From the NCBI RefSeq assembly GCF_002078605.1, contig NZ_MSJR01000003.1, positions 1 to 64,000 on the forward strand: a DNA stretch of 64,000 nt. Reading direction: 5' to 3'. The notes under the pieces are model-generated. The model was not told where the DNA came from. It did no database searches and saw nothing but the letters and a program-made list of their open reading frames with translations. Origin of the DNA: Salegentibacter sediminis. Its GTDB lineage: Bacteria > Bacteroidota > Bacteroidia > Flavobacteriales > Flavobacteriaceae. Positions 13,471 to 40,133 of this stretch are shown here, in pieces. Every line of letters starts with the position of its first letter. The first letter of the stretch is position 1. A program made the translations under genes and the position numbers.

Positions 13471-14091
13471 ATGTCCTTAAAAAAAGCCGGAATAATTATA
13501 TTACTGATCCTCATTATCGATCAGATTTCCAAATTCTATATTAAAACAAATTTTGCCCTTGGCGATGAAATAAGAGTCTTTGAATGGTTCAGAATTTTAT
13601 TCGTAGAGAATGAAGGAATGGCCTGGGGAGCGAAAATCCCCGGTTCTTACGGGAAACTTGCGTTAACGCTCTTTAGACTGGCAGCAATTGTGGGCATAGG
13701 CTACTGGCTCTGGGATTCAGTAAGGAAAAATGGCTCAAAGATTCTTATTATTTCTATCGCCCTGATTTTTGCCGGGGCAATGGGCAACATCATAGATTCG
13801 GTTTTCTACGGAATTATCTTTAACGACAGTTATGGCCATATAGCAAGCTTTTTGCCGGAGGGAGGAGGCTACGGCACGCTTTTTCATGGAAAGGTGGTTG
13901 ATATGCTTTATTTCCCGTTATGGCAGGGTAATTTACCGGAATGGATTCCGTTTTGGGGCGGTAATTATTTCACCTTTTTTGAACCAGTCTTTAATATAGC
14001 CGATTCTGCAATTAGTGTAGGGGTGGCTCTATTGTTATTATTCAATAAAAAGGCATTTCCACCAGAAGAAGAAACTTCAGAAAAGAACTAA
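13471..14091 (+). CDS. lspA: Lipoprotein signal peptidase (signal peptidase II)
   Basis: This 206-aa inner membrane aspartyl protease has four predicted transmembrane segments and cleaves prolipoproteins before the lipidated cysteine. The catalytic aspartates are Asp109 in GNIIDSVFYG and Asp178 in FNIADSAISVG. It is longer than the E. coli enzyme because of an insertion at about residues 118-140, as is common in Bacteroidota. It serves the many lipoproteins encoded in this window, such as SusD and the DUF1080 proteins. Its 3' end overlaps the convergent receiver gene by 4 bases. Confidence 0.95.
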   Translation: MSLKKAGIIILLILIIDQISKFYIKTNFALGDEIRVFEWFRILFVENEGMAWGAKIPGSYGKLALTLFRLAAIVGIGYWLWDSVRKNGSKILIISIALIFAGAMGNIIDSVFYGIIFNDSYGHIASFLPEGGGYGTLFHGKVVDMLYFPLWQGNLPEWIPFWGGNYFTFFEPVFNIADSAISVGVALLLLFNKKAFPPEEETSEKN

Positions 14092-14504
14092 GCTGCGTTA
14101 TTCTTTTCAAAGATTTTCTCGAACTTTTTCAACTCAATTGGTTTGATCAAATAATCGGTGACCATATTGAATGATTTCGCTCTTTCAAGATCGCGAGGAT
14201 CTATAGATGAACTCACCACGTAAAGGGTAATTTTCTTTTCGAAATTGTTCTTGATCTTGATGAATTCACTTAGAAATTCCCAACCATCCATCACCGGCAT
14301 ATTAAGGTCGAGGAAAATAATATCGGGAAGTTTATCCTCGGTCATATTGCCCATAATTAATTGAAAATAGTCGAGTGCCTCTTTTCCGTTTTTGAAGATT
14401 AGCAGGTTTTCAGACAGCTTCTTGATCTCGATAATCTTTCGTACCAGGTTAACGTATATTTTATCATCATCAATAATACACGCTAATTCTACTTTTTGCC
14501 CCAT
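14088..14504 (-). CDS. Single-domain response regulator (CheY-like)
   Basis: This 138-aa protein is a receiver domain with nothing attached. The acidic pocket is Asp12-Asp14, the phosphoacceptor is Asp66 in FLDLNMPVMDGWEF, the conserved Ser/Thr lies near residues 98-100 and the lysine is Lys121 in LIKPIE. It lies 10 bases downstream of the PAS histidine kinase gene and is almost certainly its partner or a phosphate sink. With no DNA-binding domain, output must go through protein contact. Confidence 0.9.
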   Translation of the reverse strand: MGQKVELACIIDDDKIYVNLVRKIIEIKKLSENLLIFKNGKEALDYFQLIMGNMTEDKLPDIIFLDLNMPVMDGWEFLSEFIKIKNNFEKKITLYVVSSSIDPRDLERAKSFNMVTDYLIKPIELKKFEKIFEKNNAA

Positions 14505-14514
14505 GAGAATTAGT

Positions 14515-15963
14515 TTAAAATTTAATCTTAAAAGTGGTGCCTACATCTACGGTGCTGGTTACAGAAATTGAACCTCCCAATGTTTCCACCTGATTTTTGG
14601 TGATAAACAGGCCAATTCCTTTTGCTTCCGGATTGCTGTGGAATGTTTTGTACATTCCAAACATTTTGTCGCCGTACTGATCCAGGTCTATGCCCATCCC
14701 GTTATCGCTAATCTCAAGATACTCCTTGTCATTCTCGATGTAGGTTTGTATATAAATCACCGGTTTTCTCCCCGGATGTTTATATTTTATGGCATTCGTG
14801 ATTAAATTTAGTAAAATACTTTCAAGATACTCAGAGATATAACTAATTTCTTCAAGAGCGTTAAATTCAGCTACGATTTTTGCATTTTCCCGATTAATCA
14901 GAGAGGAAGTTGAAGCCATTACCCCACTTAATGCATCTTCAAATTTAATGATTCGCCTGTTTTTACTAAGTAGGCTTTGTTTATTTACAATTTCATTTAA
15001 TTGTGAAATAGCTGTATCCAGATTATCTGCTATGTCTACTACATTGGGAAGCAGTTCCAGTTTGTCGGCTTCGGTTTTGGCTTCCTTTAATAATTCTACA
15101 ATAAGACTTAGGTTGCTGCTGTGAGATCGTAAATGATGAGAAACGACATGGGCAAAATTAAATAGTCTTGAATTCTGTGTGGCGATAATATCCAGGGAAT
15201 TTTGAAGATTGAGCTCGTTGGTCTTATTCTCATCGATATCCTGGTAAACCCCGCGAATTCCAATTATTTCCTGTTCTTCGTTATAAACAGGTTTTCCGGT
15301 GGCTCTTACCCAAAACTCCTTATTATGGAGGCTAAGCATTTTCAGCTCTATTTTAAACGGAATCCCGTATTTTTCACATTTTTCGAACGAAGATAGTACC
15401 CTTTGATGATGCTCGGGCGCATAAAATTTCAAACGCTCCTCGTATGCCGGTTGATAATCGATGGGACAATTCACGATCTTTTTAGTAACATTATCCCAAT
15501 AAATATTCTTGTGCAAAGTATCTACATACCACCCACCGGTTGAAGTCATCTCGGCGGTTTCGTGGTAGTAAAAGAAATTTTCTTCAATGGTGTATTGATC
15601 GCGTTTTGCCTGATGAATATTAACAAACAAAAGCACGGCGGTTTCCCGGTTGCTGTGGTCTTTGTTCTTTAAATTACGACATTCAAACCAGCGGTATTTA
15701 CCGTTGTTCAGTTTCAGTTTTAATTCCAGGCTAAAAGGTTCATTCTGGGAAGTAAGTTTATCAAAATACAGCCTGAAATCGTAGCGATAATCGGGGTGAA
15801 GAATTTCCTTTAGAAAATATTCAAAAGGCTCGTTGGTGCCGGGTTTACCTACCAGGGCACTAAAATGATCAGACCAGCTAAGCTTTTTGCTGAAAAGGTT
15901 GACCTTCCAGTAGGCAATATCAAAATCTTCAAGAATACTGTTTAACTGAAGGTCGTTTAGCAT
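14515..15963 (-). CDS. Cytoplasmic PAS-domain sensor histidine kinase
   Basis: This 482-aa kinase has two or three PAS folds (about residues 10-120 and 135-250), a dimerisation helix with His276 in VVSHHLRSH as the likely phosphoacceptor, and a C-terminal HATPase domain. The HATPase has the N-box LITNAIKYKH and the G-boxes DNGMGID and GIGLFITK. No transmembrane segment or signal peptide is seen, so the signal is intracellular. It is co-transcribed with the receiver protein downstream. This kinase architecture is frequent in Flavobacteriia; the ligand is unknown. Confidence 0.9.
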   Translation of the reverse strand: MLNDLQLNSILEDFDIAYWKVNLFSKKLSWSDHFSALVGKPGTNEPFEYFLKEILHPDYRYDFRLYFDKLTSQNEPFSLELKLKLNNGKYRWFECRNLKNKDHSNRETAVLLFVNIHQAKRDQYTIEENFFYYHETAEMTSTGGWYVDTLHKNIYWDNVTKKIVNCPIDYQPAYEERLKFYAPEHHQRVLSSFEKCEKYGIPFKIELKMLSLHNKEFWVRATGKPVYNEEQEIIGIRGVYQDIDENKTNELNLQNSLDIIATQNSRLFNFAHVVSHHLRSHSSNLSLIVELLKEAKTEADKLELLPNVVDIADNLDTAISQLNEIVNKQSLLSKNRRIIKFEDALSGVMASTSSLINRENAKIVAEFNALEEISYISEYLESILLNLITNAIKYKHPGRKPVIYIQTYIENDKEYLEISDNGMGIDLDQYGDKMFGMYKTFHSNPEAKGIGLFITKNQVETLGGSISVTSTVDVGTTFKIKF

Positions 15964-18964: not shown

Positions 18965-19846
18965 TTATTTCAGAAGTATATTTTGAATATAGTCGTAGCT
19001 TTTAGACAGGCTTTCGAAGGGATCTATTTCAAAATTTTCCTGTTCAATGATTAGATGTTCCAGGCCTGAAGTCTGAGCGTAAGTGATGAGCTCTTTGTAA
19101 TTTATAGAGCCATTGCCAATTTCGGTATTTAAACTTTCATCAAGTTTCATCATATCCTTTATGTGCCAAAGCTTGAACCTGCCGGGATGTTTTTTAAAGA
19201 GCTTGACGGGGTCTATTCCTGCTCTTACTACCCAGTAAATATCGAGTTCGAAGTCAATTAAATCTTTGTCTATTTCAGTGAGAAAAATTTCCATTCCATT
19301 TCTGCCCTGGAAATCCTTAAACTCAAAAGCATGATTATGATAGGCTAATTTCAAACCTTGCTTCCTGCACATTTCTCCAATTTCTGTCAGTTTTTTAGCA
19401 GTTTGCTTGAAACCGTCAAGCGATTGTTGAAGAGATCCGGGGATACCTGGTATTATTACATATTTCTGATTCATAGTATTAGCCGCATCCAGAATATATT
19501 TAAAGTCAGAAATATTTTTTTCTCCAGTTAAATAATCGCCACCGGAATAATGCCCGGACGGGCTGTTTAGACCATAATCGGAAAGCATTTGCTTAAAATC
19601 GCGGGCCTCATGCCCCCAAAAAAGTGCTTTTCTTGAATAGCCATAGGTTTCAATTTCTTTAATTCCTACCTGAGATATCTTTGAAATTATATTCTCCAAA
19701 TCTTTCTTTTTTAACAAATCTCTAAGAGAATATAGTTGTAGTCCTAAAGCTTTATCCTGCTCGTTGGCCAATAAAATAGAGGGGCCAACAGCAGTTGCCG
19801 CCACGACTAATCCGGCCTGTTTTAAAAAAGTTCTGCGTCGAATCAT
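18965..19846 (-). CDS. TAT-exported sugar isomerase/epimerase-like TIM barrel
   Basis: This 293-aa protein starts with a twin-arginine signal (RRRTFLKQAG, then a hydrophobic stretch ending ILLA). It continues with a xylose isomerase-like TIM barrel. Likely metal ligands lie in YHNHAFEF, ELDIYWV and WHIKDM. Close relatives in 3-keto-sugar loci act as lyases or isomerases on oxidised sugars. It is divergent from the GMC oxidoreductase gene, with 135 bases between them, and should act in the periplasm with the rest of this cluster. The exact reaction is not known. Confidence 0.82.
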   Translation of the reverse strand: MIRRRTFLKQAGLVVAATAVGPSILLANEQDKALGLQLYSLRDLLKKKDLENIISKISQVGIKEIETYGYSRKALFWGHEARDFKQMLSDYGLNSPSGHYSGGDYLTGEKNISDFKYILDAANTMNQKYVIIPGIPGSLQQSLDGFKQTAKKLTEIGEMCRKQGLKLAYHNHAFEFKDFQGRNGMEIFLTEIDKDLIDFELDIYWVVRAGIDPVKLFKKHPGRFKLWHIKDMMKLDESLNTEIGNGSINYKELITYAQTSGLEHLIIEQENFEIDPFESLSKSYDYIQNILLK

Positions 19847-19981
19847 AATTATGAAATTTGAAGCAATTGAAATAAAATATTAGGTATTTAAATTGAAGTT
19901 AAGTAAAAAAATTAGTTATCATTAATTTTTTTTAAAATAGTTTATATATTGAAGTCTCAAATTTTAACCTGAAACTAAGAT

Positions 19982-21694
19982 ATGAAGAAGGCAAAAAATC
20001 AAAATGATGCTAAGCATTTTGATGCTATAGTAATTGGCACCGGGATTACGGGTGGATGGGCGGCAAAAGAACTCTGTGAGGGAGGATTAAAGACGCTTGT
20101 CCTGGAACGGGGCCGAATGGTAGAGCATATTAAGGATTATCCTACGATGAACGATGATCCCTGGGATTATAAATTCAAAGGACAGGTAACCAGGGAAGAG
20201 CTTAAAAGGCAGGAGAAACAGGCTAGAACGGGCTATACTATTAATGATGCCAGTAAGCATTGGTTTGTAGATGATATTAAGCATCCTTATAACGAGGAAA
20301 AGCGATTTGACTGGATTAGAGGTTACCATGTGGGGGGGAAATCCTTAATGTGGGCCCGGATGTCTTTTAGATGGAGTGATCTGGATTTTGAAGCTAATAA
20401 AAAAGATGGGTACGGGGTAGACTGGCCAATTCGCTATAAAGATATTGAAAGCTGGTATGAGAAGGTAGAAAAGTATATTGGAATAAGCGGAAAGGCCGAG
20501 GGGCTCCCGCAACTCCCCGATAGTATTTTTACACCTGAAATGCCTTTAAATTGTGTAGAAGAAGAGCTTAGAGAAGGGGTCGCCGCAAACTTTGATGACC
20601 GTAAGGTTATAAATTCCCGTGCAGCTAACTTAACCGATCCGGAGGGCAGGGAAGGAAGGTCTAATTGTCAATTCCGAAATCGTTGTATTAGAGGTTGTCC
20701 TTATGGAGCGTATTTTAGCAGTAATTCTTCTACACTTCCCGCGGCCGAACGTACAGGAAATATGAGCCTCCGACCAAATTCCATTGTCCATGAGATCATC
20801 TATGATGAAGAACAGGCAAAAGCTGTTGGAGTTAAAGTTATTGATGCTGAAACCAAAGAAAGTCTGGAGTTTTACAGTGACATAATCTTTTGTTGTGCCG
20901 GTGCAATTCCTACTACTTCAATTTTAATGCAGTCTAAATCTGACCGATTTCCCAATGGCCTGGGGAACGATAGCGGAGAGCTGGGACATAATCTCATGGA
21001 TCATCATTTCAAAGTTGGAGCTACCGCAAAATCAGATAATCATTTAGAAGACTATTATAAGGGAAGAAAACCCGCAGGATTCTTTGTGCCACGTTTCAGG
21101 AATATAGACGAGAAAAGCAAAAGAAGCGATTTTATTAGGGGGTATGGAATGCAGGGTGGAGCAAGTAGAACCGATTGGACAAAGGCAATAGGTGAACTTC
21201 AGTATGGGAAAGAGCTTAAAAAAGCAATTGTCGAACCTGGGGAATGGCAAATTGGAATAAACTGTTTTGGTGAATGCTTGCCATATCATGACAATAAGAT
21301 GTCGCTTAATTATGATAAGCTGGACGAATGGGGCTTGCCTACAGTTACTTTTGATTGTGAATACAAGGAAAATGAAATGGCAATGAGAAAGGATGCCAAA
21401 CGGGAAGCTGTTGCTATGCTTGAAAAAGCTGGGTTTAAAGATGTTAAAGGATATGAGGAGCCGTGTTTTCCAGGCAATGGCATTCACGAAATGGGGACCG
21501 CCAGAATGGGCCGTGACCCTAAGACATCTGTTTTAAATGGGAATAACCAAATACATGCTGTGCCAAATGTATATGTCACCGATGGTTCTTGTATGGCTTC
21601 CTCAGCTTCCCAAAACCCATCCCTAACTTATATGGCTATAACCGCACGGGCAGCAAATCATGCCGTAGCTGAATTCAAAAAGCGCAATATTTAA
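19982..21694 (+). CDS. GMC-family oxidoreductase, probable sugar 3-dehydrogenase
   Basis: This 570-aa flavoprotein has the FAD motif GTGITGG at residues 19-25 and the GMC C-terminal domain with catalytic His502 (GIHEMGTARMG) and Asn545 (SQNPSLT). Cys229, Cys235 and Cys239 (C-x5-C-x3-C) lie where glucoside 3-dehydrogenase large subunits bind an iron-sulfur cluster. With the DUF1080, Gfo/Idh/MocA and isomerase-like genes nearby, oxidation of sugars at C3 is the best guess. It has no signal peptide. The small TAT-bearing subunit and the cytochrome that normally accompany such enzymes are not beside it. Confidence 0.85.
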   Translation: MKKAKNQNDAKHFDAIVIGTGITGGWAAKELCEGGLKTLVLERGRMVEHIKDYPTMNDDPWDYKFKGQVTREELKRQEKQARTGYTINDASKHWFVDDIKHPYNEEKRFDWIRGYHVGGKSLMWARMSFRWSDLDFEANKKDGYGVDWPIRYKDIESWYEKVEKYIGISGKAEGLPQLPDSIFTPEMPLNCVEEELREGVAANFDDRKVINSRAANLTDPEGREGRSNCQFRNRCIRGCPYGAYFSSNSSTLPAAERTGNMSLRPNSIVHEIIYDEEQAKAVGVKVIDAETKESLEFYSDIIFCCAGAIPTTSILMQSKSDRFPNGLGNDSGELGHNLMDHHFKVGATAKSDNHLEDYYKGRKPAGFFVPRFRNIDEKSKRSDFIRGYGMQGGASRTDWTKAIGELQYGKELKKAIVEPGEWQIGINCFGECLPYHDNKMSLNYDKLDEWGLPTVTFDCEYKENEMAMRKDAKREAVAMLEKAGFKDVKGYEEPCFPGNGIHEMGTARMGRDPKTSVLNGNNQIHAVPNVYVTDGSCMASSASQNPSLTYMAITARAANHAVAEFKKRNI

Positions 21695-21793
21695 GTGAAA
21701 ATCTTATTAAAGCAATGCTGACGGGAGATGCAAAGATGTTATTACTTAAATTATTAAACAAGTATTTAAACATATCTTAATTTTTAAGAATGA

Positions 21794-21843
21794 TTTTTTG
21801 TCAATTGTGCAAAAAAGCTTTTACTTCGTTTTTATTAACGAAG
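21794..21843 (+). promoter_or_regulatory. Candidate susC promoter with overlapping inverted repeat
   Basis: TTTTTTG (21794-21800) and TACTTCG (21822-21828) resemble the -33 and -7 elements at a 21-nt spacing; the -7 departs from TAnnTTTG at one or two positions. A perfect inverted repeat, CTTCGTT (21824-21830) and AACGAAG (21837-21843), covers the -7 box and the expected start of transcription, as a repressor site might. Confidence 0.35.
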
Positions 21844-21896
21844 AATTAAGAGTATTAATTAACTAGCGCTGAATATCAAATTTAAATGTTAAAAGT

Positions 21897-24800
21897 ATGA
21901 GAAACCCCTTGATTGTGTTATTCGTATTTGTGTTTTTTCAAATACCCATTTTCGCCCAGGATGAAGTTGTCATTGAAGGTGTTGTCACCGACGCTAAAAA
22001 TGGAATGCCAGTTCCTAGTGCCAATGTAATTGAAAAAGGAACCTCGAATGGAGTTTTAACCAATTTCGATGGAGAGTTTAGTATTTCAGTTCCTATTGGA
22101 GCTACTCTGGAAATAAGCTTTTTAGGCTATTCTAAAGCCGAAGTGGTAGTGGAAAATGATTCCTATCTCGAAATTTCCATTGAACCATCGGCAGCCGATT
22201 TGGAAGAAGTTGTGGTTGTAGGTTATGGTACCCAGCGCAAAGCAGATTTAACAGGAGCAGTAGCTGTTGTTGATATGGAAGCTATGGGAAGACAGCCATC
22301 TCCTCAGGTAACCGAACAACTCCAGGGACAGGCTTCTGGAGTAACTGTAGCAAGCTCAGGGCAACCCGGGGAGGCTCCTCAGGTAAGAATACGTGGTATA
22401 AATACCTTTGGCGATTCTAATCCACTTTATATTGTAGATGGTGTTCCTACCGGAGATATAAATCACCTTAACCCTAATGATATTGAGAATATGCAAGTCT
22501 TGAAAGATGCGGGGTCTGCTTCTATTTATGGAGCTCGTGCAGCTAATGGGGTAATTATTATCACAACAAGAAGCGGAAAAGGAGAGCTTAAGGTTACTTA
22601 TAATGGTTATTATGGTACGCAAACGGTACCACAGGGGAATGTTTACGACATAGCTTCTCCTCAGGAACACGCTGAGCTAAGATGGATGGCCATGCAAAAC
22701 TCAAATCCCGGAGAACCAATTGTCGACAAACAATATGGTGACGGCGCCTCACCAACCTTACCTTATTATATTCTGCCTGGGGGAGCTGCCCAGGGGGAGG
22801 TAGATGAAGCTGCTTATTATGTAGATCCTTACTATACTGAATCTGGAGCGGTTTCCGGTTTTAACCAGATTATTAGGGCAAACCAGGAAGGAACGAATTG
22901 GTTTCAGGAAATATTCAACTCTGCGCCAATAATGAATCATGATTTTTCTGTGAGTCAGGGTGGAGAAAAGGGGAATTTCCTGTTTTCTTTAAGTCATTCA
23001 GATCAGGATGGTACTTTGAATAATACTTTTCTTAAAAGATATACCGCAAGGGTAAATAGCCAATTTAACATTAAGGAAAATTTCCGTGTAGGTGAAAACA
23101 TAGCGGTTTCGGTTTCCGATGGGAACAGGATTTCTGTAATTGGAGAAAACCCAATTAATCATGCCTATCGTATGCAGCCAATTATTCCTGTATATGATAT
23201 TGCGGGTAATTTTGCAGGAACTCAGGCTCCGTCTTTAGGTAATGCACAGAACCCTGTGGCCATCCTGGAGAGAAACAGAAATAATTTATCCCGCACGAGC
23301 AGAATCTTCGGGAATATCTTTGCAGAGTTGGATTTCATGGAAAACTTTACAGCACGCACCAATTTTGGAGGAAATTATTTTAATACCAATGGCCAGGTGT
23401 TTACCTATCCAACTTATGAAAATCAGGAAAATTCAACAATAAATCAGTTAAGTGAAAATGCTTTTACCGGGTATAACTGGACCTGGTCCAATACTCTCCA
23501 GTATTCTAATAATTTTAATGACCTTCATGATGTAAGTGTTCTGGTGGGATCGGAAGCTTATTACAATCAGTATGAGGAAATCTACGGGGTAACCCAGGGC
23601 TTTTACTCCTTTAATCCTAATTATGTTAATCTAAGTACCGGTTCAGGAACACAAACGAATTCTGGTTTTTATACTGAAGATGCATTGTTCTCTGTTTTTG
23701 GTAGAGTAGATTATACCTATAATGAAAGGTATCTTCTTGGTGCGACTATAAGACGTGATGCCACCTCCCGTTTTACTAACCCACGTCACGGATGGTTTCC
23801 AGCAGTTAGTGCCGGATGGCGTATTTCTGAGGAGGCTTTTATGGATGATGTTCTTTGGATAGACGATTTAAAATTACGTGGTGGATATGGTGTTATGGGT
23901 AACCAAAATAATGTAGATCCTGCTAATGCCTTTACTACTTATGGAAGTAGTCGTACTTCATCATATTACGATATTACCGGCTCGAACAATTCTCTTGTTG
24001 AAGGCTTCCAAAGATCCCGAATAGGAAATCCAAATGCGAGCTGGGAGAAGAACGTGAATGCCAATATTGGTATTGATGCTAATTTGTTTAATAACCGACT
24101 TCAAATAACTGCAGATTACTATAGAAAAGATGTTGTAGACTTGTTGTATAATCCAGAGCTTTCTGCTACTGCCGGGGTATCTACAGTTCCTTATGTAAAT
24201 ATCGCCGAGATGAAAAACAGCGGTTTAGATTTTTCGGCAACTACTTTTGCAGATTTGACCTCTGATTTACGAATGAATGCCACCTTAACTTTCACCAGTT
24301 ACGATAACGAAATAGTTAAAATTGCTGATGGAGTTTCCTATTTCGATCAGGAAGGAAGACGATTTAATGGGAGTGCCATTGTTAGAAATGCCGTGGGTCA
24401 TTCTGTAGGACAATTCTATGGCTATCAAATCCAGGGATTCTGGAATAGCCAGGCCGAAGTTGATGCGGCCAACCAACAGGCTCAGGAAGCTACTGGAAAT
24501 CCAAATCAAGAATACCAAACCAGTATTGGGGTTGGTCGTTTCCGATATGTAGATACCAATGGAGATGGTTACATTAACAGTGATGACAGAACATTCCTTG
24601 GAAATCCCAATCCAGATTTTACCGGTGGACTAAATCTTGAATTCAATTATAAGAATTTCGATTTCAGCATGTTCCTGTATGGAGTGTATGGAAACGATAT
24701 TTGGAACCAGGTTAAATGGTGGCATGATTTCTATAGTTCATTTGGTGGGGCAAAGAGTACAACCGCCTTATATGATTCTTGGACGCCAACAAATCAGAAT

Positions 24801-25112
24801 GCTACGGCTCCAATTCAGGAGACTGGTGGAACCTTTAGTACTGCCAATGTGCCTAACTCTTATTTTGTTGAGGACGGAAGCTATTTAAGAGCAAAGAACG
24901 TTCAGTTGGGGTATAGTTTCTCTCAGGATTTTCTTGATCGCTTAGGTCTTGACAGACTTAGAATCTATGTTCAGGCTGCTAACTTATTTACTATTACCAA
25001 CTATTCCGGAGTTGATCCAGAATTAACTGGAAGCGCTACGGCCTTTGGTATAGATGAGGGAGCTTATCCTACACCACGCCAGTTTATAGGTGGTATTAAT
25101 CTTACTTTATAA
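21897..25112 (+). CDS. SusC/RagA-family TonB-linked outer membrane transporter
   Basis: This 1071-aa protein has a signal peptide (ending IFAQ), a carboxypeptidase-regulatory-like domain (about 25-100), and the SusC signature VVVGYGTQRKADLTGAV near residue 108. The plug has VRIRGINTFGDSNPLYIVDG and GSASIYGARAANGVI, and a large barrel follows. SusC proteins import oligosaccharides, using TonB energy, from a SusD lid. The susD gene follows after 25 bases. It is the import gate of the 3-keto-sugar locus. The upstream 200 bases hold its own candidate promoter. Confidence 0.96.
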   Translation: MRNPLIVLFVFVFFQIPIFAQDEVVIEGVVTDAKNGMPVPSANVIEKGTSNGVLTNFDGEFSISVPIGATLEISFLGYSKAEVVVENDSYLEISIEPSAADLEEVVVVGYGTQRKADLTGAVAVVDMEAMGRQPSPQVTEQLQGQASGVTVASSGQPGEAPQVRIRGINTFGDSNPLYIVDGVPTGDINHLNPNDIENMQVLKDAGSASIYGARAANGVIIITTRSGKGELKVTYNGYYGTQTVPQGNVYDIASPQEHAELRWMAMQNSNPGEPIVDKQYGDGASPTLPYYILPGGAAQGEVDEAAYYVDPYYTESGAVSGFNQIIRANQEGTNWFQEIFNSAPIMNHDFSVSQGGEKGNFLFSLSHSDQDGTLNNTFLKRYTARVNSQFNIKENFRVGENIAVSVSDGNRISVIGENPINHAYRMQPIIPVYDIAGNFAGTQAPSLGNAQNPVAILERNRNNLSRTSRIFGNIFAELDFMENFTARTNFGGNYFNTNGQVFTYPTYENQENSTINQLSENAFTGYNWTWSNTLQYSNNFNDLHDVSVLVGSEAYYNQYEEIYGVTQGFYSFNPNYVNLSTGSGTQTNSGFYTEDALFSVFGRVDYTYNERYLLGATIRRDATSRFTNPRHGWFPAVSAGWRISEEAFMDDVLWIDDLKLRGGYGVMGNQNNVDPANAFTTYGSSRTSSYYDITGSNNSLVEGFQRSRIGNPNASWEKNVNANIGIDANLFNNRLQITADYYRKDVVDLLYNPELSATAGVSTVPYVNIAEMKNSGLDFSATTFADLTSDLRMNATLTFTSYDNEIVKIADGVSYFDQEGRRFNGSAIVRNAVGHSVGQFYGYQIQGFWNSQAEVDAANQQAQEATGNPNQEYQTSIGVGRFRYVDTNGDGYINSDDRTFLGNPNPDFTGGLNLEFNYKNFDFSMFLYGVYGNDIWNQVKWWHDFYSSFGGAKSTTALYDSWTPTNQNATAPIQETGGTFSTANVPNSYFVEDGSYLRAKNVQLGYSFSQDFLDRLGLDRLRIYVQAANLFTITNYSGVDPELTGSATAFGIDEGAYPTPRQFIGGINLTL

Positions 25113-25137
25113 TTTGAGAAATAAAAAATATTAAAAA

Positions 25138-26913
25138 ATGAAAGACAGAATCAATATTTTTAAAATACTGGCATTAGGATTAATAATGCTAAGTAGCTCT
25201 TGTGCTGAAAATTTTCTCGATAAACCTGCCTATGGGGCTTTGAGTGATGAGGTGCTGGCAGACGAGAAAGGTGTGAACGCCTTGCTTATAGGCGCGTATG
25301 GTGCCCTGGGAGGAACTACAGATTATGCTGCTCTTGGTGGAGGTAACCCTTGGGAAGCCACCCCCTCCAACTGGATCTATGGTGACATCACCGGTGGTGA
25401 TGCCCATAAAGGAAGTGATGGTGGGGATCAGGCCGCGATCAATTCTATCTCAACATATAATGTAGATCCAAGTAATGGGTTTTTTAATACCAAATGGAAA
25501 GCCTTATATGAAGGGGTTACAAGAACAAACGCAGTTCTGAAATTATTAAGTGAAATTGAAGAGATTTCAGAAGCAGATCGTGCAAATATCGCTGGCCAGG
25601 CTAGATTTTTAAGAGGTCATTATTACTTTGAGCTTAAGAAAATGTACAATATGGTACCCTGGATAGATGAAACTACAGAAAATACCAATGTGCCAAATGA
25701 TGTAGATATTTGGCCTAAGATAGAAGCAGATTTTCAATTTGCATATGATAACCTTCCCGCGACTCAAAGTGAAGTTGGAAGAGTGAACAAATGGGCTGCC
25801 GGGGCCTATCTTGGTAAAACTTATCTCTACCAGGAAAAATTTCCCGAAGCTAAAACTGTGTTCACTGAAGTAATAAACTCTGGAGTGACTTCTAATGGCT
25901 TGAGCTATGGTTTGGTAGAAAATTACCACGCCAATTTTAATGCAGAAACCGAAAATAGCAAAGAAACTGTATTTGCAATTCAAATGGTGGCTAATGACGG
26001 GACCAATACTATTGGTAATGCCAATACGGCATTAATGTTAAATTACCCTTATAACAGCCCCTTTAGATGTTGTGGTTTTTATCAGCCTACACAAGATCTT
26101 GTAAATGCCTTCCGTACAGATGAGGCTACGGGGCTTCCATACCTTGACAATTATAACAGTAATCCTGTTAAAAATGATATGGGTATTCTTTCTGACGAGC
26201 CTTTTACCCCAGACACTCAATCTCTGGATCCTCGTCTTGACTGGACGGTAGGAAGACGTGATGTCCCTTATCATGATTGGGGGTACCATCCGGGCTATAA
26301 CTGGATTCGTGAGCAGTCCTCGGGAGGGCCATACGCTCCTAAAAAACACATCTACTGGCAGTATCACGCTGATCAGTATTCCGATCAGAGTTCATGGGCA
26401 CCGGGTAATGCGATTAATATCAATATTATTCGATTTGCCGATGTTTTATTGATGGCTGCTGAAGCTGAAGCTCAAACCGGAAACTTTGATACCGCACTTG
26501 ATTATGTGAACCAGGTAAGAGGAAGAATAGCCGATAATCCTGAACACTGGTTAAAGGATTATATTGATCCTGAAAATCCAATGGACGGTTTTTCCAGCGC
26601 GAATGCAGCAAATTATAATATTGAAAGATATCCCGACGGGTACTTTACCTCTGAAGAACAGGCTATGGATGTTATTATGTATGAAAGACGTATAGAATTA
26701 GCCATGGAAGGACATAGGTTTTTTGATCTTGTAAGATGGGGAGTTGCAACAGAAGTCATTAATGATTTCATTGAGTATGAAAGCCAAATAACGACCGATG
26801 TTAGAGGAGGGAATTTTACCGCTAATGAAGGATATTTCCCAATTCCGCAGAGACAAATAGATTTAAGTACTACTGCAGACGGACCGGTTCTGCAACAAAA
26901 TCCCGGATATTAA
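25138..26913 (+). CDS. SusD/RagB-family glycan-binding lipoprotein
   Basis: This 591-aa lipoprotein has a signal ending in LSSSC with the lipidated cysteine at about residue 23. The SusD fold is seen in the N-terminal segment (ENFLDKPAYG), the TPR-like helices (ARFLRGHYYFELKKMY) and the C-terminal ERRIELAMEGHRFFDLVRWG block. SusD binds glycan at the cell surface and closes over its SusC partner. It is co-transcribed with the upstream susC, and a hairpin terminator follows. The glycan ligand cannot be told from sequence. Confidence 0.96.
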   Translation: MKDRINIFKILALGLIMLSSSCAENFLDKPAYGALSDEVLADEKGVNALLIGAYGALGGTTDYAALGGGNPWEATPSNWIYGDITGGDAHKGSDGGDQAAINSISTYNVDPSNGFFNTKWKALYEGVTRTNAVLKLLSEIEEISEADRANIAGQARFLRGHYYFELKKMYNMVPWIDETTENTNVPNDVDIWPKIEADFQFAYDNLPATQSEVGRVNKWAAGAYLGKTYLYQEKFPEAKTVFTEVINSGVTSNGLSYGLVENYHANFNAETENSKETVFAIQMVANDGTNTIGNANTALMLNYPYNSPFRCCGFYQPTQDLVNAFRTDEATGLPYLDNYNSNPVKNDMGILSDEPFTPDTQSLDPRLDWTVGRRDVPYHDWGYHPGYNWIREQSSGGPYAPKKHIYWQYHADQYSDQSSWAPGNAININIIRFADVLLMAAEAEAQTGNFDTALDYVNQVRGRIADNPEHWLKDYIDPENPMDGFSSANAANYNIERYPDGYFTSEEQAMDVIMYERRIELAMEGHRFFDLVRWGVATEVINDFIEYESQITTDVRGGNFTANEGYFPIPQRQIDLSTTADGPVLQQNPGY

Positions 26914-26938
26914 AATTTGTAGCCATTGATTATTTTCA

Positions 26939-26975
26939 AGAGAGTGTTTTTTTAAGCACTCTCTTTAATTTTCAA
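26939..26975 (+). terminator. Terminator of the susCD unit
   Basis: AGAGAGTG (26939-26946) pairs with CACTCTCT (26957-26964) around a T-rich loop and is followed by a T-rich tail. It ends the susC-susD transcript, so the Gfo/Idh/MocA operon downstream needs its own promoter. Confidence 0.85.
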
Positions 26976-26984
26976 TTTTGTCTA

Positions 26985-27002
26985 ACTAAACCAGGGTTTA
27001 GT
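26985..27002 (+). promoter_or_regulatory. Perfect 18-bp palindrome, candidate operator
   Basis: ACTAAACC (26985-26992), a 2-nt centre AG, and GGTTTAGT (26995-27002) form a perfect inverted repeat. It lies between the susCD terminator and the Gfo/Idh/MocA start, just after a TTTTG that could be a -33 element. The size and the AAACC/GGTTT half-sites recall LacI-type operators, but the centre differs and no regulator gene is in the cluster. Confidence 0.45.
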
Positions 27003-27027
27003 CAATACCCCGTAAAACTCAATAAGC

Positions 27028-28377
27028 ATGAAAAAACAAAGACGGTCTTTTATAAAGAGCCTTGGCCTGGCAGGAGCTACCGCAGCCATTATGCCCTCTG
27101 CTTTTGCCTCTGAAACAAAACAAATAAAGTTCCTGGAAAGAACTGCGGGAAATCTATTCGGTTCTAAACCTCTGGGATTAGCTTTAATCGGTGCCGGTGG
27201 AATGGGCGTTGCCGATGCGAAAACAGCATTGGAACACGATAATATTAAAATGCTCGCCGTTTGTGATTTGTATGACGGTAGACTGGAAGATTCAAAAACC
27301 CGATGGGGTGAAGATATATTTCTCACTAAAGATTATGAGGATATTCTAAAAAGAGAAGATATTGATGCCGTAATAATCGCCACTCCAGATCACTGGCATA
27401 AACAAATAAGCATTGATGCCCTAAAAGCAGGCAAACATGTGTACTGCGAAAAACCCATGGTCCATTCTGTGGCGGAGGGGCATGAATTGATTAATGCCTG
27501 GAAAAAATCTGGAAAGATTTTTATGGTTGGGAGCCAGGGCTTGTCTTCTTTGGGGAATGAAAAAGCTAAAGAATTACTTGCCCAGGGTGCAATTGGAGAT
27601 ATCAATTATGCCGAAGGATTCTGGGCCCGGAATTCACCATTTGGAGCCTGGCAATATCCAATTCCGCCAGATGCTTCTCCTCAAACAGTAGATTGGCAGA
27701 AATTTATCGCCAATACCGAAAAACGTCCCTTTGATGCAAAACGATTTTTCCGGTGGAGGAATTACCTTGATTATGGCACTGGTATGTCTGGAGATTTATT
27801 TGTACATCTTTTTTCCAGCCTTCATTTCATAACCAATTCATTAGGACCAAATAAGATCTCGGCCACGGGAGGCCTGCGTTATTGGAAAGATGGGCGGGAA
27901 GTTCCAGATGTATTATTGGGCATGTTCGATTATCCCGACTCTGAGCAACATCCCGGTTTTAACCTTTCTCTACGCTGTAATTTTGTTGATGGTACCAGCG
28001 GCAGTACATTCCTTAAAATTGTTGGGAATAAGGGCTCCATGGACGTCACCTGGGATGATGTAATGCTAAAACAAAACGACGTTGCCGCTTCAAATGACCC
28101 TTTCATGGAAGAAAAAGGCAGGGAACAGAGTCAAACACGCACTGACCGCAAAAAGATACTCCCACCTTCAGAAACCTTTTATCAGGTTGAAAAAGGATAT
28201 AAAGGAGCTCATTACGATCATTTTGCTAATTTCTTTCAGGCCATAAGGACCAATGGGCAGGTAGTAGAGGATCCGGTATTTGGATTCAGGGCTGCGGCTC
28301 CGGCCTTGCTTTGTAATGAAAGCTACAGGCAAAACAAATTCATGGGGTGGGACCCGGTGAAGATGAAAGTAATTTAA
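27028..28377 (+). CDS. TAT-exported Gfo/Idh/MocA-family oxidoreductase
   Basis: This 449-aa protein begins with a twin-arginine signal (KKQRRSFIKSLG) and is expected in the periplasm with its nucleotide bound. The Rossmann motif is GAGGMGV near residue 55, the family motif CEKP lies near residue 140, and the RFFRWRNYLDYGTG block near residue 240 is typical of the secreted subgroup. It may oxidise or reduce a sugar at C3, matching the DUF1080 partners; some family relatives (GH109) use NAD to cleave glycosides. It is the first gene of a four-gene operon ending at 31299. Confidence 0.9.
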   Translation: MKKQRRSFIKSLGLAGATAAIMPSAFASETKQIKFLERTAGNLFGSKPLGLALIGAGGMGVADAKTALEHDNIKMLAVCDLYDGRLEDSKTRWGEDIFLTKDYEDILKREDIDAVIIATPDHWHKQISIDALKAGKHVYCEKPMVHSVAEGHELINAWKKSGKIFMVGSQGLSSLGNEKAKELLAQGAIGDINYAEGFWARNSPFGAWQYPIPPDASPQTVDWQKFIANTEKRPFDAKRFFRWRNYLDYGTGMSGDLFVHLFSSLHFITNSLGPNKISATGGLRYWKDGREVPDVLLGMFDYPDSEQHPGFNLSLRCNFVDGTSGSTFLKIVGNKGSMDVTWDDVMLKQNDVAASNDPFMEEKGREQSQTRTDRKKILPPSETFYQVEKGYKGAHYDHFANFFQAIRTNGQVVEDPVFGFRAAAPALLCNESYRQNKFMGWDPVKMKVI

Positions 28378-28395
28378 TCCTATAAAATTCTGCAG

Positions 28396-29928
28396 ATGAA
28401 AAATCTATTTTTCGGGAGCTTTTTATTATTCCTTTTAATTTCTGCTATTCCCTTGGAAAACCCTATTTCTCCATATCCTGATTCTACGGTAGGGGATTTG
28501 GGGATTTTTGAAAACGAGGTCATTATAGGAGATTCTGACTTTCCTGGAGAAATGGAGTACAACCAGGAGTTGCAGGAATATTCGTTTTCATTTTCTGAAA
28601 ATCAAGCATCAGATGGATCTAACCCATACCACTACCTGTATAAATCTATTCAAGGCGATTTTATTCTTAGAGCTCATTTAAGCTTTGAAGATGCTGAGGG
28701 TTCGGGATCAACTGCCGGATGGATAATTCGTAATAATCTTAGTTCTCAATCTGAAGAGGTGATCGCTAAGGTGAATAGTTTAGGAGAAGCTTCCCTTGAT
28801 TCCAGGACAATGGATAGTTTAAAATCTGTTGACGCTCCCCGGGCAAAGGTGAATGTGGTCCAACTGGAGAGAAGGGGGAATGTTTACTACTTTTCTTCAG
28901 CAAAATTTGGGGAGCCTTTTTCAACCGTGAAAATTGAAAATGAAAATTTGAGGAACGAAGCCTTTGCAGGACTTTTCTTTGATCCTGGAGAAAACGGCGC
29001 TGGCGGAAAGCTTGTGGTAAATAACGTAAGGATTATAAAGCCTGCGGGACCAGATTTTGAGCAGTATCAGGAATATCTTGGCAGCAACCTGGAAATTCTG
29101 AATGTAGAAACAGGGAAACGGAAAATTTTGTATAACTCCGCTCATTCCATTCAGGCTCCTAACTGGGTGAACAAGGATAAAGATCTGGTCTATAATTCAA
29201 ATGGGTACTTATACCGGTATGATTTAAAATCAGAAAAAGTGGAGCAAATTGAAACCGGATTTGCAACCAGTAATAACAACGATCATGTTTTTTCTTTTGA
29301 TGAAAGTATTTTAGGAATAAGTCATCATAACCAGGAAGATGCCGGGGCATCATCCCTTTATATTATGGATCCTGCAGGAGATACGCTTCCGAAGAAAATT
29401 ACAAGAGATGGCGTAGGAGCGTCTTATTTGCACGGGATTTCTCCAGATAATAAACGCCTTATTTTCACGGGGGAGCGAAAGGGGAAAATGGATATTTACA
29501 GCATTGATATTGAAACTAAGGAAGAAACCCAGTTAACAGATACCGATTATCTGGACGATGGCTCAGAATATTCCCCAGACGGGAAATATATTTATTTTAA
29601 CTCTAACCGTAACGGCAAGATGCATCTCTGGAGGATGAAACCCGATGGGAGTGAGCAAGAGCAATTAACCTTTGATCCGAAGCATAATGATTGGTTCCCA
29701 CATGTCTCACCCGATGGCAAGTGGATCGCGTTCATCTCTTTTCCTCCCGAAATTGATTCAGGAGACCACCCGTTTTATCAACGTTGCCTGTTAAGGCTTA
29801 TGCCGGCAGATGGGGGAGAACCTAAAGTTATAGCCTACATATATGGTGGACAGGGCAGCATTAATGTCCCTAGCTGGTCGAGCGACAGTAAGCATATAGC
29901 CTTTGTCACTAATACCGCGTGCAATTAA
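28396..29928 (+). CDS. Secreted PD40-propeller protein with N-terminal jelly-roll-like domain
   Basis: This 510-aa exported protein has a hydrophobic signal (residues 1-18). Residues about 40-230 look like a concanavalin/jelly-roll fold of the DUF1349 or DUF1080 kind (GDFILRAHLSF, GWIIRNNL). Residues about 235-505 hold five or six TolB-like PD40 repeats, such as EYSPDGKYIYFNSNRNG and HVSPDGKWIAFISF. No catalytic motif is recognised. It lies 18 bases after the Gfo/Idh/MocA gene and just before two DUF1080 genes. A role in glycan binding, or as a partner of the keto-sugar enzymes, is inference. Confidence 0.8.
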   Translation: MKNLFFGSFLLFLLISAIPLENPISPYPDSTVGDLGIFENEVIIGDSDFPGEMEYNQELQEYSFSFSENQASDGSNPYHYLYKSIQGDFILRAHLSFEDAEGSGSTAGWIIRNNLSSQSEEVIAKVNSLGEASLDSRTMDSLKSVDAPRAKVNVVQLERRGNVYYFSSAKFGEPFSTVKIENENLRNEAFAGLFFDPGENGAGGKLVVNNVRIIKPAGPDFEQYQEYLGSNLEILNVETGKRKILYNSAHSIQAPNWVNKDKDLVYNSNGYLYRYDLKSEKVEQIETGFATSNNNDHVFSFDESILGISHHNQEDAGASSLYIMDPAGDTLPKKITRDGVGASYLHGISPDNKRLIFTGERKGKMDIYSIDIETKEETQLTDTDYLDDGSEYSPDGKYIYFNSNRNGKMHLWRMKPDGSEQEQLTFDPKHNDWFPHVSPDGKWIAFISFPPEIDSGDHPFYQRCLLRLMPADGGEPKVIAYIYGGQGSINVPSWSSDSKHIAFVTNTACN

Positions 29929-29946
29929 AACTATAAATAATAAATT

Positions 29947-30702
29947 ATGAAAAGAATTATTCTAAGCGTTTTTACGGTCACGGCAATGATGGCCTGTAAA
30001 AATTCTTCTGAAAATTCCGAAAGCGAATCGGAAGTGAAAGCAGAAGAAAAAAATGAAATTTCAAGTCAGGATGAAGATTGGCAATATCTCTTTGACGGCA
30101 AGAATGCTGATGGCTGGCGGGCATACAATGGGGAAGATGGAGAAGGCTTGCCTGATGGATGGATAATTGAAGACGAAACTTTAAAATCTCTCGGAAAAGG
30201 TGGAGATATTGGTGGGGATATTGTTTACGAAGAGAAAGAATTTGATGAGTTTGAACTTTATCTTGAATGGAAGATTTCTCCAGAAGGAAATAGCGGTGTT
30301 TTTTACCATGTGATAGAAGATGAAAAATATGACGCCCCTTACTTTGCCGCTCCCGAATACCAGATCATAGACCAACTTGGTTTTCCGCAGGAACTGGAGT
30401 CATGGCAATCTATTGGAGGAGATTATGGAATGTATGACCCTGAATATAATGAAGAAGACCTGAAAGAGATAGGTGAGTGGAATTCCAGCAGAATTAGATT
30501 CACCAATGAGAAAGTGACCTACTGGTTGAATGGCGAGAAAACACTGGAATTTGAACCCTGGTCTGAAGATTGGCAAAAAAGAAAGGAAGAAGGGAAGTGG
30601 AAAGATTTCCCGGATTACGGAAAAGCAAAATCCGGACTAATAGGCCTGCAGGATCATGGCAGTTTTACCTGGTTTAGAAATATAAAAATCAAAGAACTAT
30701 AA
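29947..30702 (+). CDS. DUF1080 (3-keto-disaccharide hydrolase family) lipoprotein, copy 1
   Basis: This 251-aa lipoprotein has its lipidated cysteine at residue 17 (MMAC) and an acidic linker (residues 20-45). The DUF1080 fold (PF06439) runs from WQYLFDGKNADGW to the final WFRNIKIKEL. GNSGVFYHV and the WNSSRIRF strand are family hallmarks. Members shown in other bacteria cleave 3-keto-glycosides. It has an insertion of about 40 residues around YGMYDPEYNEED that copy 2 lacks. It is third in the operon and stands 3 bases before copy 2. Confidence 0.9.
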   Translation: MKRIILSVFTVTAMMACKNSSENSESESEVKAEEKNEISSQDEDWQYLFDGKNADGWRAYNGEDGEGLPDGWIIEDETLKSLGKGGDIGGDIVYEEKEFDEFELYLEWKISPEGNSGVFYHVIEDEKYDAPYFAAPEYQIIDQLGFPQELESWQSIGGDYGMYDPEYNEEDLKEIGEWNSSRIRFTNEKVTYWLNGEKTLEFEPWSEDWQKRKEEGKWKDFPDYGKAKSGLIGLQDHGSFTWFRNIKIKEL

Positions 30703-30705
30703 AAG

Positions 30706-31299
30706 ATGAAAAATAAAGGAATTTTATTGGCTCTTTTGTTTGTAGCTTTAGTAGGCTGCAAATCGGAATCTCAGCTTTTTAATGGAAAAGACCTTGAGGG
30801 ATGGCAAGTGTACGGTACCGAACAATGGTATGTGGAAGACGGTTTACTGGTTGCCGAAAGCGGCCCGGATGCCGAATACGGATACCTGGCAACCGATAAA
30901 AACTATAAAAATTTCGAACTGGAACTGGAATTCCTTCAGGAGGCAGATGGTAACAGCGGAGTTTTCTTTCGTTCAGATATAGAAGGTACAAAGATTTCGG
31001 GCTGGCAGGTTGAAGTAGCTCCCCCTGATTTACATACAGGTGGGGTCTATGAATCTTATGGCAGAGGTTGGCTTGTTAAACCCGAAGATAGTAAGGAAGA
31101 TGTTCTCAATTATGGAGATTGGAATAAGATGAAGATAAGGGTTGAGGGAGATAAAGTTCAAACCTGGCTCAATGGGGAGGAAATGATCGATTTTTCAGAC
31201 GAAAAAATTGGTGATGCCAACGGAAAAATTGCTCTTCAAATTCACGATGGAGGTGGCATAAAAGTTTTCTGGAGAAATATTAAGTTAAAGGAACTATAG
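30706..31299 (+). CDS. DUF1080 (3-keto-disaccharide hydrolase family) lipoprotein, copy 2
   Basis: This 197-aa lipoprotein has its cysteine at residue 18 (LVGC) and the compact DUF1080 domain: QLFNGKDLEGW at the start, GNSGVFFRSD in the middle, and VFWRNIKLKEL at the end. It is a clear but divergent paralogue of the preceding gene and lacks that gene's insertion, so the two probably prefer different keto-glycosides or linkages. It is the last gene of the operon, and a strong terminator follows after 55 bases. Confidence 0.9.
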   Translation: MKNKGILLALLFVALVGCKSESQLFNGKDLEGWQVYGTEQWYVEDGLLVAESGPDAEYGYLATDKNYKNFELELEFLQEADGNSGVFFRSDIEGTKISGWQVEVAPPDLHTGGVYESYGRGWLVKPEDSKEDVLNYGDWNKMKIRVEGDKVQTWLNGEEMIDFSDEKIGDANGKIALQIHDGGGIKVFWRNIKLKEL

Positions 31300-37879: not shown

Positions 37880-37910
37880 AATTAAATCAAGAACATATAA
37901 AAATATTAAT

Positions 37911-39053: not shown

Positions 39054-39355
39054 GAGATTATATTTGCCAACTTAATCGATTATTTGAAAAATAATTAAAC
39101 TAATCCTACTGTTTAGGTTAAAGTTTATTTTCTGGTTGTGAATAAAGTTCAATTTAAGGACTTTTGCGCTCGCATTTTTGGAGTGGTTACCAAACAGTGT
39201 GATTTATTTTTTTCATAATTTAAGTTTTAGTTGGTTAATAAGACAAAAACCCTATCATTAATTTGATGGGGTTTTTTGTTTAATTACATTTGGAATAGAA
39301 ATTGTAAATATCGGTATAGTAACACGAATTTTACCTTTATCAGCAAGACAAAGCC
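39054..39355 (+). other. Intergenic region of 302 bases
   Basis: No protein gene fits here. TATATTTG (39060-39067) resembles a -7 box just after hpd, and a strong terminator lies at 39246-39277, about 190 bases past the hpd stop. A short transcript between the two is possible. The last 75 bases should hold the promoter of the DUF3108 gene; TACCTTTA near 39334 is the closest to a -7 box. Confidence 0.5.
39246..39280 (+). terminator. Terminator downstream of hmgA-hpd
   Basis: AAAACCCTATCA (39246-39257) pairs with TGATGGGGTTTT (39264-39275) through 12 pairs, one of them G-U, around a 6-nt loop. A T-run follows. It ends the hpd transcript or a small RNA in the gap. Confidence 0.85.
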
Positions 39356-40132: not shown

Positions 40133-40133
40133 C

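Follow-up and report, generated by a model that had tools for sequence, protein, structure and literature searches.

A probable import-linked 3-keto-glycoside locus of Salegentibacter sediminis whose LacA-type dehydrogenase may be exported by a LacC from a second locus

A cluster of eight genes at positions 18965-31299 was analysed in a 64,000-nucleotide stretch of DNA from Salegentibacter sediminis (NZ_MSJR01000003.1, positions 1 to 64,000), hereafter called the window, which is contig C16 of a 3.26-Mb genome. The reading that we favour, and hold to be rather probable, is that of an import-linked auxiliary locus for 3-keto-glycosides. Its GMC oxidoreductase would be a LacA-type catalytic subunit exported with the LacC of a locus on another contig (C19), and one LacC would serve two catalytic subunits. 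All eight open reading frames (ORFs) are present and full length, with clear family matches in Pfam and NCBIfam (Table 1). This confirms the gene set given in a preliminary description made from the sequence alone, which joined SusC/SusD genes with a GMC dehydrogenase, Gfo/Idh/MocA and isomerase-like proteins, a PD40 protein and two DUF1080 proteins. Searches for glycan use target classical hydrolases, and loci of this kind are therefore passed over.

Over its full length, the GMC protein aligns with the fructose dehydrogenase large subunit (E 1.5e-36). The alignment includes the C-x5-C-x3-C motif, the His that is replaced in the H1147A chain and the near-C-terminal Asn that is replaced by Ala in 8xcn. 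No Asn of the window protein is aligned with N1146 of that enzyme (N1146A chain). The GMC fold, the cysteine motif and a catalytic His/Asn, which together define a LacA subunit, are thus all found in the window GMC. The motif is present in 112 of 112 GMC sequences, the window included, and presumably binds a 3Fe-4S cluster. In complexes of the fructose dehydrogenase type, the signal for twin-arginine translocation (TAT) is carried by the small subunit. No export signal was visible by eye on the window GMC.

No LacC (PF13618) is encoded beside the GMC gene or anywhere else in the window. Genome-wide, one PF13618 protein and two proteins with the GMC C-terminal domain were found. The single LacC is on C19, begins with the leader MNRREALKNIG and adjoins the second GMC (LacA), to which the window GMC is 68% identical. 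The C19 locus resembles the window cluster in its LacA, DUF1080, TIM-barrel and Gfo/Idh proteins. It differs in holding LacC and a NupG-type MFS transporter, and in that neither SusCD nor PD40 occurs within its annotated 20 kb. Its Gfo/Idh and TIM enzymes have no visible signals. Lactose use by Caulobacter requires lacA, lacB and lacC, all three, according to the portion of PMC9007349 available. With neither a visible export signal nor a LacC of its own, the window GMC would most likely exit the cytoplasm bound to the C19 LacC.

The same arrangement was observed in the genus. Fifteen genomes were compared, of which the fifteenth (61% complete) has no GMC of any type. C19-type GMCs were found in 14 genomes, window-type GMCs in 6, and whole genes of a third type (34% identity) in 7. 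The window GMC shares 96% identity with that of Salegentibacter flavus and 92% with that of S. tibetensis. The 22 PF13618 proteins of the genus lie at the 14 C19-type loci and at 8 third-type loci; none lies at a window-type GMC, and an adjacent LacC was seen at 0 of the 6 window-type loci. The C19-type LacA-LacC pair is also present in all six window-type genomes, and in three of them (G000, which is the window genome, G003 and G014) it provides the sole LacC. The preliminary description had proposed to seek the same gene order in relatives. The order of a divergent TIM gene followed by GMC, SusC, SusD, Gfo, PD40 and two DUF1080 genes was complete in three of the six genomes with a window-type GMC (the window, G001 and G009), ran into a contig end in two (G003, G011) and was reduced in one (G014). 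This conserved order is not chance. In the reduced locus of S. tibetensis (G014, L045/L036), SusCD is absent between GMC and Gfo, and TIM and PD40 were found only as ORFs of 99 aa and 111 aa. At G009:C1:666905-671612, a further third-type GMC was matched as two separate stretches some 2.6 kb from each other, and a PF13618 gene comes after them.

The relationship of GMC and LacC was then followed in 112 GMC proteins from fetched loci, with pieces of 480 aa or less excluded and L035, L036 and L043 dropped as repeats of L044, L045 and L051. LacC was found within 300 bp of 79 GMCs, within 2.5 kb of 4, and near none of the other 29. These 29 are the 6 Salegentibacter proteins, 22 proteins of a second lineage (Arenibacter, Maribacter, Zobellia and kin) and the one of L086, a 3-kb contig that ends at the GMC and where the absence of LacC is uninformative. 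In the tree, the LacC-less Salegentibacter proteins form a clade of six (support 97 in the Shimodaira-Hasegawa-like approximate likelihood ratio test, SH-aLRT). Its sister is a pair of Christiangramia/Gramella GMCs with LacC within 2.5 kb, and the next protein outward has LacC within 300 bp. The sister loci, from Christiangramia crocea and Gramella sp. KN1008, carry SusC, SusD, a further gene, GMC, TIM, LacC and PD40 in one run, with a TIM protein 56% identical to that of the window. The simplest history would be the loss of LacC from the window-type locus in a cell that had a further copy of it. Between SusD and GMC, the sister loci (L046:6614-9982 and L047:6576-9953) encode a protein of 1122-1125 aa, and the L046 copy matches FG-GAP and UnbV/ASPIC.

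In the second LacC-less lineage, the fetched locus includes, for 19 of the 22 GMCs, a different GMC that does have LacC; L109 and L115, which hold three GMCs of this lineage, have no LacC-bearing GMC within the stretch covered. The HxxG[TS] pattern occurs in 87 of the 112 GMCs and in 0 of these 22. The loci concerned are L074, L076, L077, L087, L088, L092, L094, L097-L099, L101-L103, L105, L107-L109, L115, L119 and L120. A wider survey covered 199 genomes of the family, with GMC counted at E 1e-200 or better. GMC was found in 105 genomes and PF13618 in 112; LacC was present in 105 of the 105 GMC genomes and in 7 of the 94 others (Fisher p ~1e-48, in a test that ignores kinship). This co-occurrence ties the GMC family to LacC in general terms but does not show that a LacC is shared.

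The orphan GMCs of Salegentibacter have remained conserved. They keep 177 of the 185 columns (95.7%) that are invariant in LacC-linked GMCs, within the range of five control clades, which keep 89.8-99.5% (176/196 to 185/186); one member of the Flavicella control clade has LacC within 2.5 kb but not within 300 bp. Between the window and G003, the ratio of nonsynonymous to synonymous substitution (dN/dS) is 0.028 for the GMC and 0.028-0.120 over the six cluster genes on the G003 contig, and it is about 0.03-0.24 in all computable comparisons within the cluster. Column conservation and dN/dS show constraint on the orphan GMC, not LacC binding.

The TIM-barrel protein is the likely cleaving enzyme, because its best structural matches are 3-keto-glycoside lyases. 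Its AlphaFold2 (AF2) model was built from a five-sequence alignment, with a predicted local distance difference test score (pLDDT) of 78.0. In Foldseek, ranks 1-3 and 5 were taken by 8tct, 8tcr and 8tcd, titled "3-Keto-beta-glucopyranoside-1,2-Lyase" BT1/AL1 (E 3e-19 to 2e-17, template modelling (TM) score 0.75-0.82, identity 26-29%). Ranks 4, 6 and 7 were Parabacteroides proteins titled sugar phosphate isomerase/epimerase, and rank 8 was the A. tumefaciens eliminase AtOGE (8bvk). By sequence, the protein also matched 8tcd (E 3.2e-32) and 8tct (E 1.4e-29), so the lyases stand above other TIM-barrel families in both sequence and fold. The motifs Y-H-N-H, E-L-D-x-Y-W, H-x-K-D and E-x-E align with 8tcd, and may form the metal site and supply the catalytic His. 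The protein is a probable 3-keto-glycoside 1,2-lyase (beta-eliminase). Its leader, read by eye, is of TAT type (RRTFLK), as is that of the Gfo/Idh protein (RRSFIK). The earlier claim of TAT-exported Gfo/Idh and isomerase-like proteins is supported to that extent, but there is one isomerase-like protein and not several.

Both DUF1080 proteins belong to PF06439, the family of 3-keto-disaccharide hydrolases (D1 154.6 bits and D2 141.8 bits, cut-off 26.8). Lipobox-like cysteines at C17 and C18 bear out their earlier description as lipoproteins. D1 matches 3u1x (E 3.2e-48) and 8tda (E 5.5e-30) in the PDB. It is a standard DUF1080 protein that keeps the polar positions N115, E137, Q139, Q235 and H237 conserved across 103 aligned sequences, and is a probable 3-keto-glycal hydratase or 3-keto-glycoside hydrolase. 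D2 matches 4jqt (E 1.9e-30) and departs from two of the conserved polar positions (Q101, E103). DUF1080 relatives such as 8tda are presumably hydratases. BT2157 is named a 3-ketotrehalose hydrolase in the part of PMC9007349 available, and active-site residues of the DUF1080 family, looked for in the available part of PMC9765024, were not found there. The Gfo/Idh protein matches DgpA (7xr9, E 2e-25) and 8tdf (E 2.3e-25).

The beta-propeller of the PD40 protein is best matched by 2ojh (Atu1656), at E 2e-62 by sequence and TM 0.89 on the target by fold. The predicted structure has a pLDDT of 68.6, with low confidence in the N-terminal beta-rich domain, for which no Pfam match was found even at E 1. 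An oligogalacturonate-lyase-like identity was considered and rejected, as the sequence matches are weak (E 8e-6 and 2e-4) and the best fold match is 2ojh, a protein of unknown role. PD40 matches at E 1e-80 or better were found in 28 of 299 family genomes, in one (G173) to the propeller part only. Besides the window, 29 matches were listed, 20 loci were fetched and the neighbours of 6 of these 20 were scanned with Pfam. In two of the 20 loci (L131, L132), PD40 directly follows GMC-LacC, and a DUF1080 gene comes next, immediately in one locus and with three short ORFs in between in the other. L139 and L143 likewise have DUF1080 near PD40; Gfo/Idh genes are found near it in L136, L137 and L139. 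Among the six scanned loci, a ThuA ("trehalose utilisation") protein adjoins PD40 in L129 and L139 and a ThuA-domain protein is near it in L136. GH1 and GH3 genes are by PD40 in L129; in L130 it has GH3 on one side and a phage integrase on the other. No consistent context emerged from the neighbours of PD40 in five plasmid records.

Taken together, the following route is proposed. SusCD would import a glycoside or oligosaccharide into the periplasm, where the LacA-type flavoprotein, escorted by the C19 LacC, would oxidise a sugar hydroxyl, most likely at C3, and pass the electrons through its iron-sulfur cluster to a cytochrome, as motif and family suggest. The TIM-barrel protein, TAT-exported according to its leader, would cut the glycosidic bond by beta-elimination. 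D1 would then hydrate the resulting 3-keto-glycal, or directly hydrolyse the keto-glycoside, and the Gfo/Idh protein would oxidise or reduce the 3-keto sugar or the substrate, using tightly bound nicotinamide adenine dinucleotide (NAD). DUF1080 more likely acts after the TIM barrel, and elimination followed by hydration is the best reading of the cleavage order. The C19 locus may also contribute its inner-membrane transporter, of NupG type, as well as additional Gfo/Idh and TIM enzymes, its LacC thereby serving catalytic subunits from two unlinked loci. The 3-keto route of oxidation and cleavage, put forward in the preliminary description, remains the best fit, but the route is already published and the cleaving role falls more likely to the TIM barrel than to DUF1080 (alone). 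Its placement mostly in the periplasm is kept only with reservation, as the GMC shows neither a visible signal nor a LacC beside it and no inner-membrane transporter is encoded in the cluster, no search for transporters having been made in the rest of the genome.

Several observations weigh against this proposal. Activity, regioselectivity, substrate, export and LacC binding of the window GMC are predictions, and the protein may instead act in the cytoplasm or be escorted by a different partner, for instance Gfo/Idh or TIM. The co-occurrence of GMC and LacC in the family is driven largely by adjacent pairs and does not by itself show sharing. Columns in which most members differ make up 4 of 185 (2.2%) in the orphan clade, just above the controls (0.5-2.0%, highest 4/196), and the second LacC-less lineage keeps just 152 of the 185 invariant columns (82%). 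No cytochrome gene is within the cluster; a search for LacB candidates gave seven PF13442 matches elsewhere in the genome, five of them above the cut-off. The eliminase identity of the TIM barrel rests on match rank, and the protein also matches, more weakly, IolE (rank 11), the hydratase AtHYD (rank 20) and 3-epimerases. The Gfo/Idh protein scores 135.8 bits against NF058561 (BT_2158 glycoside 3-dehydrogenase), under the equivalog cut-off of 750, and by this score is a relative and not a member of that family. Among Pedobacter DUF1080 genes, none had a lactose phenotype (PMC9007349, in part), and deletion of BT2157 and BT2158 left growth on raffinose-family sugars unaffected (PMC11501099, in part).

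The same 3-keto pathway could run with a GMC that has no LacC at all, either staying in the cytoplasm or exported with another TAT protein of the cluster. We consider this the less probable course, though one to be taken seriously: the window GMC has no visible signal, none of the six genus loci has an adjacent LacC, a second LacC-less lineage of 22 sequences exists, and the TIM and Gfo/Idh proteins bear TAT-type leaders that might serve. However, the cysteine motif of membrane-bound, cytochrome-linked relatives is kept, most second-lineage GMCs (19 of 22) share their fetched locus with a LacC-bearing GMC, and the Christiangramia/Gramella relatives retain LacC in the locus, all of which speaks against this course.

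An oxidation of free sugars appears improbable. Here the GMC would be a simple sugar or polyol dehydrogenase of the fructose-5 or glucose-1 type, and the TIM, Gfo/Idh and DUF1080 proteins would be an isomerase, an inositol-type dehydrogenase and a lectin. Fructose and glucose dehydrogenases are indeed the closest solved GMC structures, and the TIM protein matches the NCBIfam IolE model, if weakly (53 bits, cut-off 290). Yet its best structural matches, the 3-keto-glycoside lyases, rank above IolE, DUF1080 and TIM-barrel genes repeatedly stand beside such GMCs, and genetic evidence from Caulobacter supports LacABC with DUF1080 (PMC9007349, in part). That the locus is a decaying, non-functional relic is scarcely credible: the reduced S. 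tibetensis locus, without SusCD and with its TIM and PD40 remnants, would suit such a history, but the ORFs of the window are all full length and the dN/dS range against G003 given above is low for all six genes compared.

A broader proposal can be advanced only tentatively. One LacC may serve two or more exchangeable GMC subunits at unlinked loci, and a new 3-oxidising specificity may be acquired by gaining an orphan LacA with SusCD. Such sharing would have arisen at least twice in Flavobacteriaceae, in trans in Salegentibacter and within a cluster in Arenibacter/Maribacter/Zobellia, and PD40 would add another, so far undescribed, enzyme to the pathway. If the escort is shared, adjacency-based annotation of LacABC misses catalytic subunits, and the specificity of a 3-keto pathway could widen by one gene.

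The cluster was compared with known systems. In the Bacteroides thetaiotaomicron and Alistipes systems, the first oxidation is carried out by NAD-dependent Gfo/Idh enzymes, with which the NCBIfam names agree. The TIM protein of the window is like their lyases BT1 and AL1 (8tct, 8tcd, 8tcr) in fold and sequence; 8tda and 8tdf, matched by D1 and Gfo/Idh, presumably belong to the same enzyme set. The window differs from that set by the added LacA-type GMC. A 2024 Nature paper reportedly deals with non-Koshland glycosidases. The pairing of the 3-keto route with a GMC dehydrogenase and DUF1080 is published for LacABC in Caulobacter and Bacteroidetes (PMC9007349, in part). Like the Caulobacter lacABC + DUF1080 system and its Pedobacter/Indibacter relatives in that paper, the window has a LacA-type GMC with periplasmic DUF1080; unlike these, it has SusCD, PD40 and a second DUF1080 in the run, and is without LacC, LacB and an inner-membrane transporter. 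AtOGE and AtHYD are part of an Agrobacterium operon for oxidation, elimination, hydration and reduction (PMC10628242, in part). This four-gene operon performs the same reaction series, and AtOGE resembles the window TIM protein in fold, but the operon is without SusCD, and its description there makes no mention of export. The terms GMC and DUF have 0 occurrences in the available part of PMC6298971, and no paper joining three of GMC oxidoreductase, SusC, polysaccharide utilization loci and DUF1080 was among the open-access matches listed.

In 80 named loci, which reach at most 10 kb either side and some of which stop at contig ends, so that the counts are lower bounds, GMC, SusC and DUF1080 were combined in at least 14, and with SusD too in at least 11. 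A PD40 gene was found in at least 4, one of them a 111-aa fragment. The suggestion that the exact set with PD40 may be undescribed therefore survives in part: the combination of GMC, SusC and DUF1080 is not unique (14 of 80), while the PD40 set is rare (4 of 80). As a reading, the overall pathway is plausible and a variant of known 3-keto loci, and the new part is the orphan LacA within an import module, probably completed in trans.

Table 1. Genes of the cluster (window coordinates) and the second LacA-LacC locus
Feature	Position	Strand	Basis or content
TIM-barrel protein, PF01261 (AP_endonuc_2)	18965..19846	minus	TAT-type leader; divergent from the other genes; Pfam E 3.3e-19
Divergent intergenic region, 135 bp	19847..19981		ORF ends
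GMC oxidoreductase, predicted LacA-type catalytic subunit	19982..21694	plus	Pfam; C-x5-C-x3-C motif
SusC/RagA TonB-dependent outer-membrane transporter	21897..25112	plus	TIGR04056, 853 bits (cut-off 368)
SusD-like surface lipoprotein	25138..26913	plus	PF07980, E 2e-45
Gfo/Idh/MocA NAD-type oxidoreductase	27028..28377	plus	TAT-type leader; PF01408, E 1.4e-23
PD40 protein, N-terminal beta-rich domain and 2ojh-type beta-propeller	28396..29928	plus	Pfam; PDB sequence match
DUF1080/PF06439 lipoprotein D1	29947..30702	plus	PF06439, E 4.1e-45
DUF1080/PF06439 lipoprotein D2, divergent subtype	30706..31299	plus	PF06439, E 3.3e-41
Second locus, G000:C19	L004:9512-17305		LacA, LacC, DUF1080, two TIM-barrel proteins, Gfo/Idh, NupG-type MFS transporter

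The plus-strand genes are separated by gaps of 202, 25, 114, 18, 18 and 3 bp, in order. The divergent intergenic region probably holds the promoters of the TIM and GMC genes. A Bacteroidetes promoter pattern, TTTG-N15-25-TANNTTTG, had no match there or anywhere in the cluster; it was matched 3 times in all, against an expectation of 6.1. Rfam and tRNA scans of the window gave no matches. As stated earlier from the sequence, no classical glycoside hydrolase, polysaccharide lyase or local regulator family was found among the eight proteins by the Pfam scan; of the hallmarks of a polysaccharide utilisation locus, the eight genes show the SusC/SusD pair and neither of the others. The closest regulators seen are a response regulator and a PAS histidine kinase at 14088-15963, with four housekeeping-type genes between them and the cluster. 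The upstream neighbours, on the minus strand, are a Zn-protease-like gene, rimK, an aspartoacylase-like gene and a gene for 5-formyltetrahydrofolate (5-FTHF) cyclo-ligase; uvrC starts 235 bp downstream.

The two halves of the locus differ in divergence. For the window versus L037/L039, the synonymous divergence of GMC, SusC and SusD was too high to compute in 5 of 6 comparisons and 2.2 in the sixth. The values were 0.53/0.92 for Gfo, 0.60/0.43 for PD40, 0.20/0.20 for D1 and 0.24/1.12 for D2, and the TIM proteins are just 48-49% identical. Part of the 3' half looks to have been exchanged between lineages more recently than the 5' half. Further downstream, model matches to homogentisate dioxygenase, hydroxyphenylpyruvate dioxygenase (N-terminal model) and tryptophan 2,3-dioxygenase are grouped at 36722-41099, and these genes probably serve ordinary breakdown of aromatic amino acids.

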